Below are positions 61,383-63,714 of a DNA stretch of 64,000 nucleotides, piece by piece (positions within the stretch are counted from its first letter, which is position 1; every line of letters begins with the position of its first letter). This stretch comes from Ectobacillus antri (GTDB lineage: Bacteria > Bacillota > Bacilli > Bacillales > Bacillaceae_G), in NCBI RefSeq assembly GCF_003852715.1, contig NZ_RIAV01000005.1:62001-126000 (forward strand), in the 5' to 3' direction. The position numbers were made by a program, and so were the translations under genes. The notes below the pieces were generated by a model. That model saw nothing but the letters and a program-made list of their open reading frames with translations. It did not search any database and was not told the origin of the DNA.

Positions 61383-62021
61383 ATGACAAGCACGACTTTG
61401 CTTAATGATTTTAATACAATTGTAAAAGGTCGACGTTCCATTCGTAAATACGATACAAACGTAAAAATTTCAAAAGAAGAAATGACACAAATTATTGAAA
61501 CTGCAACGCTAGCACCTTCTTCTGTTAACATGCAGCCTTGGCGTTTTGTTGTAATTGAAAGCCCGGAAGCAAAAGCAACACTTGCACCTTTAGCACGCTT
61601 TAACCAATCACAAGTAGAAACGTCTTCTGCAATGATTGCGCTATTCGGCGACTTAAACAACTTCGACTATGCAGAAGAAATCTACGGCCGCGCTGTTGAG
61701 CTTGGTTACATGCCGGCTGAGGTAAAAGAGCGTCAGCTAGAAGCAATTGGCGGCTTATATGCTAATGTAACGCCAGAGCAAATGAAAGATATTGTGCTAA
61801 TTGATGGCGGCTTAGTAGCTATGCAGTTTATGTTAGCTGCACGTGCACACGGTTATGATACTTGCCCAATTGGTGGCTTTGAAAAAGATCAAATTGCAGA
61901 AGCTTTCGGTATGGACAAGGACCGTTACGTTCCGGTTATGCTCATCTCTATCGGTAAAGCAGAAGATACTGGTTATCAATCTGTACGCCTTCCTGTTGAC
62001 CGCATCACAGAGTGGAAATAA
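61383..62021 (+). CDS. NAD(P)H nitroreductase family protein (YodC/MhqN-like)
   Basis: 212 residues. FMN-binding blocks: GRRSIRKYDTNVKISKEEM, TLAPSSVNMQPWRFVVIES, GGLVAMQFMLAARAHGYDTCPIGGF and YVPVMLISIGKAED. These dimeric enzymes reduce nitro groups or quinones by hydride transfer. It has AAAGGAGA upstream and is the second gene of the MarR operon. Relatives in B. subtilis are under MarR-type quinone sensors, in line with this layout. Confidence 0.93.
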   Translation: MTSTTLLNDFNTIVKGRRSIRKYDTNVKISKEEMTQIIETATLAPSSVNMQPWRFVVIESPEAKATLAPLARFNQSQVETSSAMIALFGDLNNFDYAEEIYGRAVELGYMPAEVKERQLEAIGGLYANVTPEQMKDIVLIDGGLVAMQFMLAARAHGYDTCPIGGFEKDQIAEAFGMDKDRYVPVMLISIGKAEDTGYQSVRLPVDRITEWK

Positions 62022-62047
62022 TAAAACAAACTAAGGAAGTGGCTACC

Positions 62048-62341
62048 ATGATTATTATTCATGCGACGTTAACAATTGATGCAACAAAAGAAGCGCTGTT
62101 TTTACAAGAAATTACACCTTTATTAGAAGCATCTCGTGCTGAAGAAGGAAATATCTCCTATACATTGACGAAAAATGCACAAAAGGAAAATGAGTTTATC
62201 ATGGTAGAAGTGTGGAAGGATTTACGTGCTGTGTCTGCGCACAACACGAGCACTCACTTTACTGCTTTCTCCGAGAATGCAAGAGACTTTGTCATTGCGC
62301 CAATTGAACTAAAAATGTATGAAGCAAGTACGTTAAAGTAA
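62048..62341 (+). CDS. Antibiotic biosynthesis monooxygenase (ABM)/quinol monooxygenase-like protein
   Basis: 97 residues of the ferredoxin-like ABM fold: MIIIHATLTIDATKEALFLQEITPLLEASRAEEGNISYTL, then FIMVEVWKDLRAVSAHNTSTHFTAF. YgiN-type relatives oxidise quinols or degrade small aromatics. ATG at 62048 has GGAAGTGG before it; the longer frame overlaps the nitroreductase and is rejected. It lies 26 bp after the nitroreductase, last gene of the operon before a terminator. Confidence 0.9.
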   Translation: MIIIHATLTIDATKEALFLQEITPLLEASRAEEGNISYTLTKNAQKENEFIMVEVWKDLRAVSAHNTSTHFTAFSENARDFVIAPIELKMYEASTLK

Positions 62342-62347
62342 TATGAA

Positions 62348-62380
62348 GCAGCTTGTAGGGGTAACCTGCAAGCTGTTTTT
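62348..62380 (+). terminator. Terminator of the MarR-nitroreductase operon
   Basis: GCAGCTTGTAGG/CCTGCAAGCTGT with one G-U pair, followed by TTTTTAT. The IS-like element begins 7 bp later. Confidence 0.88.
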
Positions 62381-62386
62381 ATATAT

Positions 62387-62820
62387 TTGACACTCCCACC
62401 CCTAAAGAGGCAAGCTGGCTAACGCCAGTGGGATTCTTGTATGACTTTGCGTTCGCAGTCTATTTCTGTTTTGAACAGCCTACAAGATGAGGGTGTGCCA
62501 TCACCCTTCCATAGGCAGTGCGTATAGCACCTATGGCGACTATTCTGTTACCAAATAGCCTAGCTTTTGGTTCTCAAATGTGTTGTAGCGTCTTATTCTT
62601 GACGACTTAATACATTTTACGGAGTAGAGGAATTTGCTACTCCAACCTCATATGTATTCTGTTTTCAGAGAACATGTCGTTTTAGAGACTTTTGCTTGTC
62701 TATGAACCAAGTATAGCATACAAACATATGTTTTTCTATTGAAAAAGCGACACTTTCATCCCACGCCTAAAGGCGGTGCTATTGCACCGTAGTGGGCTTT
62801 CCCGTATCGCAAATTCTGTA
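62387..62820 (-). mobile_element. Protein-less IS200/IS605-like element with highly folded interior
   Basis: Both ends carry the same three-way junction in direct orientation. Near end 62395-62432: CCCAC, CCTaaagAGG, TGGCtaacGCCA, GTGGG. Far end 62760-62796: CCCAC, GCCTaaaGGC, GGTGCtattGCACC, GTGGG. Subterminal hairpins in the same orientation typify IS200/IS605. On the minus strand the near end reads CAAGAATCCCAC... and finishes AGTGTCAA, like the 3' scaffold of TnpB omega-RNAs (from memory). No tnpA, tnpB or iscB frame is present. The interior holds at least five further hairpins. The far boundary (about 62820, after TTAC on the minus strand) is approximate. Confidence 0.7.
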
Positions 62821-62880
62821 ACGAATGCTATAATATAGATATCAGTCATGTTAATTTGTAGAACGTAAGGAGTTTATCTT

Positions 62881-63714
62881 ATGAGTCATATAGATATTTT
62901 AAAACAACCCGAGTGGCGCATTATCGACCAATCAAGTATGGGACCGCAATTTCATGCGCTTCAGTCCTTCGCGATGGACGACACGCTGTGTACGGTGGTC
63001 GGCAGCGGAGATTCACCCGCTACGATGCGCTCTTGGGTGCATCACGAAACAATTGTACTCGGCATCCAAGATACCCGCCTTCCTCACTTACAAGAAGGTA
63101 TTGCCCTGCTAAAGGAGCGTGGCTATCGCGTGATTGTACGCAACTCCGGCGGATTGGCGGTTGTATTGGATGAGGGTGTGCTGAATGTTTCATTAATTTT
63201 GCGCGAGTCTGAGAAAAGCATTGATATTAATTTAGGCTACGATGCCATGTATGGCTTAATTCAGCACATGCTTCGAGATTTTCCGGCTGTGATTGAGGCA
63301 AAAGAAATAGTAGGCTCTTATTGTCCTGGCAGCTATGATTTAAGTATTAATAATCAAAAGTTCGCAGGTATCTCACAGCGCCGCATTCGCGGGGGCATTG
63401 CCGTACAAATTTATCTATGCGCAGACGGTAGCGGCTCGGACCGAGCTCGGACGATTCGTGACTTTTATGATATTGCTCTGCAGAATGAAGAGACCAAATT
63501 TACCTTTCCAACCATCATCCCGGAGACGATGGCATCTCTATCCGAGCTACTTGGGCAGCACATCACCGTTCAGAACTTAATGCTTCGTCTATTTCAGTCC
63601 CTACAAAGCATGGGAGGTCGCTTGCGTGCGGAACCCCTTTCTCCGCAAGAGGCAGAATTGTATGAGCATCATTTGCTGCGTGTCATGGAACGGAATAATA
63701 AAGTGCTTGTATAG
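62881..63714 (+). CDS. lipL: Octanoyl-[GcvH]:protein N-octanoyltransferase (LipL)
   Basis: 277 residues of the lipoate/biotin ligase fold. [21 protein letters not shown] is the ligand loop, and the acyl-carrying cysteine is C148 in [24 protein letters not shown]. In B. subtilis (YwfL) it moves octanoyl from GcvH to the E2 subunits of 2-oxoacid dehydrogenases. The start follows AAGGAG. Next to pta as in B. subtilis. Confidence 0.94.

Follow-up and report, generated by a model that had tools for sequence, protein, structure and literature searches.

A protein-free IS200/IS605-type element of Ectobacillus antri as a probable standalone omega-RNA gene

A 431-bp element without a protein gene was delimited at positions 62387-62817, minus strand, of the window (the whole 64,000-nucleotide stretch analysed here, from Ectobacillus antri contig NZ_RIAV01000005.1). 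It is probably a non-autonomous transposon of the IS200/IS605 type which doubles as the gene of a standalone omega-RNA and uses TnpA and TnpB in trans. Sequence comparison places it in a family of Bacilli elements that are likewise of the IS200/IS605 type and protein-free. A preliminary description had offered a guide RNA acting in trans and a mobile passenger element as alternatives; the comparisons reported here support both, which would fit jointly and not as rivals.

The bounds of the element were set by an empty site (locus L163) in a complete congener genome, G002. This genome is uninterrupted at the position of the window copy, the insertion is precise and without target duplication, and the empty site reads TTGC where the window copy has TTAC. 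Either the copy arrived after the split from G002 or G002 lost it precisely. The presumed target tetranucleotide (TAM), TTAC, lies before the left end (62818-62821, minus strand) and the element ends in TCAA. Among 27 parsed family rows, three of them duplicates, a script that sought exactly these strings found TCAA at the right end in 21 and TTAC before the left end in 23; as to exceptions, L002/L005 read TTTAA (by eye), the left ends of L061/L062 lie outside the sequence and the L058 match may be spurious.

Subterminal imperfect hairpins (CCCAC...GTGGG with inner hairpins) stand in the same orientation at both ends, on the left at 62760-62796 and on the right at 62393-62435 (both minus strand), as the preliminary description had read them. 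The right-end hairpin adjoins the presumed guide, which from TnpB biology would be the first ~20 nt of the flank (62367-62386, minus strand) and which is part of the terminator of the upstream operon, a terminator-like site. The reading of the element as protein-free also held, no open reading frame of at least 50 amino acids overlapping 62342-62880. Like PATEs of the IS200/IS605 type, the element has such hairpins at both ends, is inserted 3' of a fixed tetranucleotide without target duplication (one empty site) and lacks a transposase gene; autonomous tnpA-tnpB relatives with matching ends exist.

Searched with Rfam, window positions 61800-63400 gave three sRNA matches below the gathering threshold (up to E 5), none inside the element, and seven related loci gave one match below that threshold (up to E 1), again outside. 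No credible covariance-model match was obtained to the IscB omega-RNA (HEARO), to the group I intron of IStrons, a model proposed earlier for this site, or to other Rfam families. TnpB and IscB had both been suggested as partner; homology of the core (below) points to TnpB, and Rfam gave no HEARO match that would speak for IscB. A CRISPR-Cas12f guide was rejected because no repeat-spacer array was seen by eye in the element sequence.

Further copies are present in the window's own draft genome (G000) on contigs C6 (95%) and C74 (78%), both over most of the length, together with a 67-base match on C24; G002 holds three long copies. The C6 copy is common to both genomes at the same site (L002/L005, 99.2% over 3420 bp). 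Copy L003 is 98.6% identical to L016/L024 inside the element (L016 and L024 share 99.1%), and the flanks are unrelated. By these comparisons the set of copies as a whole has moved, and the mobile nature proposed earlier is borne out by protein-free copies at unrelated sites and by the precise empty site.

The omega-RNA core was defined by alignment, covariation and tnpB-side homology as the 177 nt at 62387-62563 (minus strand), terminating in the right end. In tnpA-tnpB elements the segment that follows tnpB immediately on its 3' side is a homologue of the right end and the ~180 nt upstream of it, and the first core stem there overlaps the last tnpB codons; this agrees with the likeness to a TnpB guide-RNA scaffold that had been noticed at the minus-strand end. 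As in an omega-RNA, the scaffold ends at the right end and its secondary structure is conserved. Minus-strand 62391-62704 (314 nt) folds at -91.6 kcal/mol (z -4.06), and none of 100 shuffles is as stable. In an alignment of 18 core sequences (A2), compensatory changes occur in 30 of 51 pairs. Core cells are paired in 98.3% of cases versus 77.9% in shuffles, a level reached by none of 500; all five covariation measures exceed all 500 shuffles, and slid controls pair at 33-47%. The stems listed in the preliminary description were recovered: CCATAGG (62509-62515) with CCTATGG (62530-62536), GGGTG (62491-62495) with CACCC (62502-62506), CTTGTA (62436-62441) with TACAAG (62481-62486) and GGAGTAG (62621-62627) with CTACTCC (62637-62643). 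The covariation, the empty site and the related complete elements in other genomes, on whose absence that description would have given up its reading, were thus all found.

Upstream of the core, ~140 nt at the 5' end (62564-62703, minus strand; alignment A1, model R1) form a separate domain that is not seen in tnpB-bearing elements, which corrects the earlier picture. In 17 sequences this 5' domain has 19 predicted pairs, ten with compensatory changes, and 26 of 57 loci score at least 107 bits with R1; the domain is kept from Exiguobacterium to Paenibacillus. Alignments A1 and A2 exclude the divergent L007 and six loci that are incomplete or without the right end (L051, L053, L058, L060, L063, L027); L054, without most of the 5' domain, is in A2 only, and the identical duplicates L005, L046 and L062 were removed.

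Several elements were located within the domain, all on the minus strand. Hairpin 1 (62679-62701), identified by motif scan, consists of AGAC, a loop and GTCT followed by CTAAAAC. Hairpin 2 (62582-62604), placed by alignment, is like a hairpin in tnpB open reading frames; its tail is CTAAAAC in most copies and CTACAAC in the window copy, whose hairpin 2 thus falls outside the motif scan. Pairing of the hairpin 2 loop with the omega-RNA core was considered and rejected, since inspection by eye revealed no consistent complement. Between them the module alignment gives a central hairpin (62610-62657) with stems ATACAT/ATGTAT and GGAGTAG/CTACTCC around a ATGAGGTT/GTAAA internal loop. A closing stem of GTTCTC (62668-62673) with GAGAAC (62570-62575), spanning 62570-62673, was evaluated by arm-swap scoring: of 17 members all but L055 (10.5) score at least 15, and own arms average 16.1 versus 11.2 for arms swapped between members, the own mean being reached by 7 of 214 swaps. 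RNAalifold did not predict this stem. Since the hairpin 2 tail and ATAGACTG in the core depart from otherwise conserved positions, the window copy is possibly decaying.

A -10 hexamer, TATACT, with TG before it was placed at 62710-62715 (minus strand). In the 17 members listed a TA-initial hexamer (TATACT, TACAAT, TACACT, TATATC, TATCTT and others) stands at a roughly constant distance from ATAGACAAG. This positional conservation points to a promoter-like region just inside the left end; a consensus promoter scan performed at chance level (two found, 1.7 expected from shuffles).

The exact pattern of the RNA 5' end was found in 17 stretches in bacterial genomes taken one per species, from Exiguobacterium, Caryophanon, Metalysinibacillus, Lysinibacillus, Paenibacillus, Bacillus, Siminovitchia and Virgibacillus. 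Matches to the element occur in 12 of 60 genomes searched (own included), several only to an end or the core. Under stricter filters, by which weak matches are lost, R1 matches were obtained in 28 of 398 genomes of the class (15 of them with matches of at least 70 bits and up to seven copies per genome) and in 7 of 397 genomes of the order. Some single genomes hold many R1 matches (G689, seven copies; G737, six weak ones). Plasmid records of B. velezensis and B. carboniphilus contain standalone copies, and six B. subtilis plasmids with matching stretches are among the matches listed. Phage records gave no match, nor did IMG/VR with the 5'-domain pattern; IMG/VR searched with TnpB gave three loci, each matching residues 1-359. 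The near-identical Exiguobacterium elements L061 and L062, from two genomes, have right flanks that match but begin six bases apart; the L061 flank has an extra TGTTAC, which either re-insertion or a small deletion would fit.

A boxA-like sequence, GTTCTCTGAAAACA, lies at 62660-62673 (minus strand) with two mismatches to the rRNA boxA, as judged against the rRNA operons of G002. There GTTCTTTGAAAACT occurs exactly at 11 sites, all at rRNA operons: nine start 60 nt before the 16S rRNA and two are in the 16S-23S spacer. Of eight further one-mismatch sites two are standalone elements (L156, L159), and a backward control pattern gave three. The motif is at the same place with one to three mismatches in 14 of 17 standalone RNAs, a level that dinucleotide shuffles reach in 0-12 of 1000. 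The three members without a Bacillus-type boxA are the Exiguobacterium copies L050, L052 and L061 (5, 7 and 5 mismatches). In the four operons listed for the host shared by L050 and L061, the leader carries GAACTTTGAAAACTGAACG and the spacer GCACCTTGAAAACTGAAGA, and the corresponding region of L061 is GCCCCTTGAAAATC; its likeness to the boxA variant of its own host is suggestive, that of L050 less so. This own-host comparison covers G000/G002 and one Exiguobacterium, a 16S rRNA having been found in one of five hosts searched. Three protein-free elements with another right end (L216, L218, L220) carry the exact 14-mer; from identical TnpB coordinates (G633 and G760), their genomes would share a genus code with the host of L050 and L061.

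RNAs that are not translated are prone to termination by Rho, which boxA, a binding site for NusB/NusE, can prevent (PMC4807359); the same source holds that in rRNA operons boxA serves mainly in rRNA maturation. As the tnpB mRNA is translated and the standalone RNA is not, we propose that the boxA of the latter may act as an antitermination signal. This reading is complicated by the overlap of boxA with the closing stem in most members.

Weak R1 matches and blast matches led to protein-free elements with different right ends, recognised by the strings GGGGAGTGGTCAA, GGTGGAGGTAGTTCAA, GTGTGGAGTGTCAA, GTTGTTGAC and GGGAGTTGTCA. In 19 such loci, which include three of the window element's core type (L206-L208), a right end was recognised in 16 and none in three, and no open stretch exceeds 98 codons before the right end. 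By eye they represent at least three core types besides that of the window element, and these cores, too, may be omega-RNA cores. Alignment A3 holds 21 of the 24 segments found by regular expression, the near-copies L215, L218 and L220 being omitted; six of 30 loci gave no match to the expression (L007, L050, L061, L015, L207, L208). The aligned segments have a boxA-like stretch and then a hairpin with a ATGAGGTT/GTAAA-type internal loop. Its cells are paired in 98.8% of cases versus 62.8% in shuffles and 96 cells carry double changes versus 28.7; two measures stay near the shuffles (pairs with a double change, 10 versus 8.9; pair types, 26 versus 24.4). Because the same module is found beside different core types, it seems to travel independently of the core. 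In another core type (L209, L210, L212, L214, L015 and others) a shared GCGAAAACCAAGC can pair with a downstream GCTTGG, and AAAAACCAAAAG, a related stretch, is found in a tnpB of similar type (L039).

The IS200/IS605 relatives comprise a tnpA of 133-134 codons with stop and a tnpB of 360, and share their last ~180 nt with the standalone elements. A similar left end stands upstream of tnpA in the five of eight loci where this region is in view (L046-L049, L010); the gene table for L049, which is known to have gaps, shows tnpA alone. The two L048 proteins match NCBIfam guided_TnpB and transpos_IS200 above cut-off. The element at L047 (pNY3A, CP079755), on a record labelled Klebsiella grimontii, is a tnpA-tnpB element close to the Paenibacillus/Bacillus ones and may reflect either transfer or a mixed assembly. 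An R1 search of 50 loci around tnpB found the 5' domain within no tnpB-bearing element. The sole strong match (134 bits) belongs to a standalone copy that lies apart from the tnpB element on the B. carboniphilus stretch L046, and the other 13 matches (19-28 bits) mostly represent a hairpin inside tnpB, with two (L099, L100) upstream of tnpB. Since the 5' domain is absent from tnpB-bearing elements, tnpA and tnpB would have been replaced by the promoter-like region and ~140 nt of conserved RNA.

Possible partners were sought in the host genomes. An uninterrupted TnpB relative (69-72% identity) is present in six of 12 hosts; of the others one has an open 256-codon piece, one a stop-broken copy, two only distant relatives (30-36%) and two none at E 1e-20. 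Cognate TnpB (E 1e-60) occurs in 11 of the 15 genomes with strong R1 matches versus 28 of 383 others (Fisher p 2e-9, uncorrected for kinship and assuming that both draws are the same genomes), and is missing at that threshold in four of the 15. The core of the same-genome TnpB element is the best or a tied best match to the standalone core for six of eight copies, from four of six genomes, among 46 partly redundant partner cores (Caryophanon L172, which gave no core, is absent); one standalone/partner pair is 100% identical over 108 nt. The same-genome partner was not the best core in the two remaining tests (L059, L006).

The preliminary description had suggested a search of the genome for TnpA and TnpB with matching ends; such genes were found in other genomes and not in the window's own draft, where the best TnpB match is 37% over residues 151-347 and the best TnpA match 40-47%. 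G002, assembled as one contig, holds only broken tnpB pieces of this TnpB family. The family looks orphaned in G000 and G002, and in the draft G000 a copy could be hidden. A TnpB/Cas12f-like gene with an array-like repeat lies elsewhere in the window's genome (C1:65671). Its protein is not favoured as partner, given the 37% identity over 151-347 and a different RNA downstream. The corresponding locus L038 (G000:C1:64600-67800) encodes a 516-aa protein above the NCBIfam cut-off for guided_TnpB and below that for Cas12f2, with the array-like repeat after it and a boxA-like TTGTTCTTTGATAAGTA just after the stop codon.

Weak R1 matches (E 0.012-0.65) in each of seven tnpB-bearing loci include one hairpin inside the coding sequence, ACGGCAAGAACAAGCCGTAAAAAC or a close variant, which codes TARTSRKN or TTRTSRKN. 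Its four stem pairs form in 42 of 43 distinct tnpB sequences (three of four in L125), and where alanine is replaced by threonine the stem changes on both sides. For a synonymous-site test, 33 of the 43 coding sequences were retained so that no two shared 90% identity or more. Excess codon identity peaks in seven-codon windows whose first codon is 265-272 or 346-353 (z 2.7-4.5), the second range marking the omega-RNA overlap; the windows listed between the two peaks have z -0.8 to 1.4. The hairpin, with constrained synonymous sites, lies ~210 nt upstream of the tnpB stretch overlapping the omega-RNA. It occurs twice in standalone RNAs and once in the tnpB mRNA. A motif scan of ~0.9 Mb on both strands, covering all collected loci and the window, gave 144 matches: 59 in tnpB, 84 in standalone elements (by loose context rules), one in the standalone L007 and none elsewhere. 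As the loci were collected around these features, the scan speaks for specificity and not abundance. Most likely the hairpin would either belong to a longer guide RNA or let TnpB control its own mRNA at this site. We know of no earlier description of an RNA element inside the tnpB coding sequence.

In the mechanism that we propose, the minus strand would be transcribed from a promoter just inside the left end, the rRNA-type boxA and hairpin would keep RNA polymerase going through the long untranslated RNA, and the omega-RNA core would run through the right end into flanking DNA, which would serve as guide. TnpA of an autonomous relative would move the element, and TnpB of such a relative would take up the standalone RNA and cut the vacated site (TTAC and guide), repair then restoring the element. 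In a model proposed for ISDra2, the donor site left empty is cut by TnpB and repair brings the transposon back (PMC8612924). A non-autonomous copy would need an omega-RNA of its own because the autonomous guide matches only its own site; an excised copy would be lost unless TnpB carries its guide, so core, right end and promoter-like region would be kept while the genes are lost.

That the element is protein-free, with IS605-type ends and copies at unrelated sites, would equally be expected of a decayed palindrome-ended remnant (PATE/MITE) moved by TnpA in trans, its RNA structure inherited and now functionless; the window genome without a detected cognate TnpB and the changed conserved positions of the window copy would suit such a remnant. 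We consider it unlikely, since compensatory changes are seen among the standalone copies themselves and the 5' domain, though not found in the loci with tnpB, is conserved from Exiguobacterium to Paenibacillus. The RNA might instead be a decoy or repressor that titrates TnpB or another factor and restrains the autonomous element, its guide being unimportant. If an mRNA-binding factor were competed for, two copies of the hairpin versus one in the tnpB mRNA would make sense. In a decoy, however, a guide would be superfluous; the elements retain the right end and the hairpin beside the guide, and the core tracks the resident partner in six of eight tests as guide function expects, so this reading is rather improbable.

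Nuclease-dead TnpB repressors use gRNAs, and a host-adopted regulatory guide RNA of that kind could explain the one copy held at the same site in G000 and G002. The flanks, that is the presumed guides, nevertheless differ among parsed copies (duplicates and the L061/L062 pair aside), and the L048 TnpB, the only one scanned, matches guided_TnpB above cut-off; we regard host adoption as very improbable. The reading as a transposon carrying its own omega-RNA gene would explain how a gene-less transposon survives peel-and-paste movement. More broadly, protein-free transposons, as a class widespread in Bacilli, may exploit TnpA to move and TnpB to survive their own excision through a portable cassette (promoter, rRNA-type boxA and covarying hairpin) joined to several omega-RNA cores, with a second RNA element in the tnpB mRNA; this combined picture might hold or fail with about equal chance. 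Its prediction is that guide RNAs of transposons make use of the rRNA antitermination machinery, and it points to an RNA element inside the tnpB coding sequence. The B. velezensis plasmid copy and the listed B. subtilis plasmid matches bring ordinary laboratory tests within reach.

Among known systems, trans-acting standalone omega-RNAs have reportedly been found for IscB; the likeness lies in a guide RNA without a nuclease gene and the difference in the nuclease family. PATEs are said to have been noted beside TnpB elements in Geobacillus. The literature searched gave no paper that names TnpB together with boxA, a weak indication as most subscription papers lie outside its coverage. With the rRNA boxA (PMC4807359) the present motif shares the same 14-mer within one to three mismatches in 14 of 17 members and a long untranslated RNA, but it sits in a transposon and is followed by a covarying hairpin. 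PATE and PATE-like IS605 elements resemble the present family in their IS605 ends, the absence of tnpA and tnpB and a presumed TnpA in trans; in a Halanaerobium PATE-like element of ~271 nt the final 58 nt of tnpB and the complete right end, the expected place of an omega-RNA, are retained, and a passage search of that source gave neither 'ncRNA' nor 'non-coding' (PMC7290912). The present family differs from PATEs in its conserved 5' domain, conserved -10-like position, covariation and occurrence in many species. The TnpB omega-RNA or reRNA, as in ISDra2, has in common with it a right-end-derived scaffold followed by flank as guide and a TnpB partner of the same family. The ISDra2 reRNA is ~150 nt (PMC8612924) and TnpB processes its own mRNA (PMC10278001), whereas the standalone RNA, which lacks tnpB in cis, would measure ~320 nt and includes a separate 5' domain.
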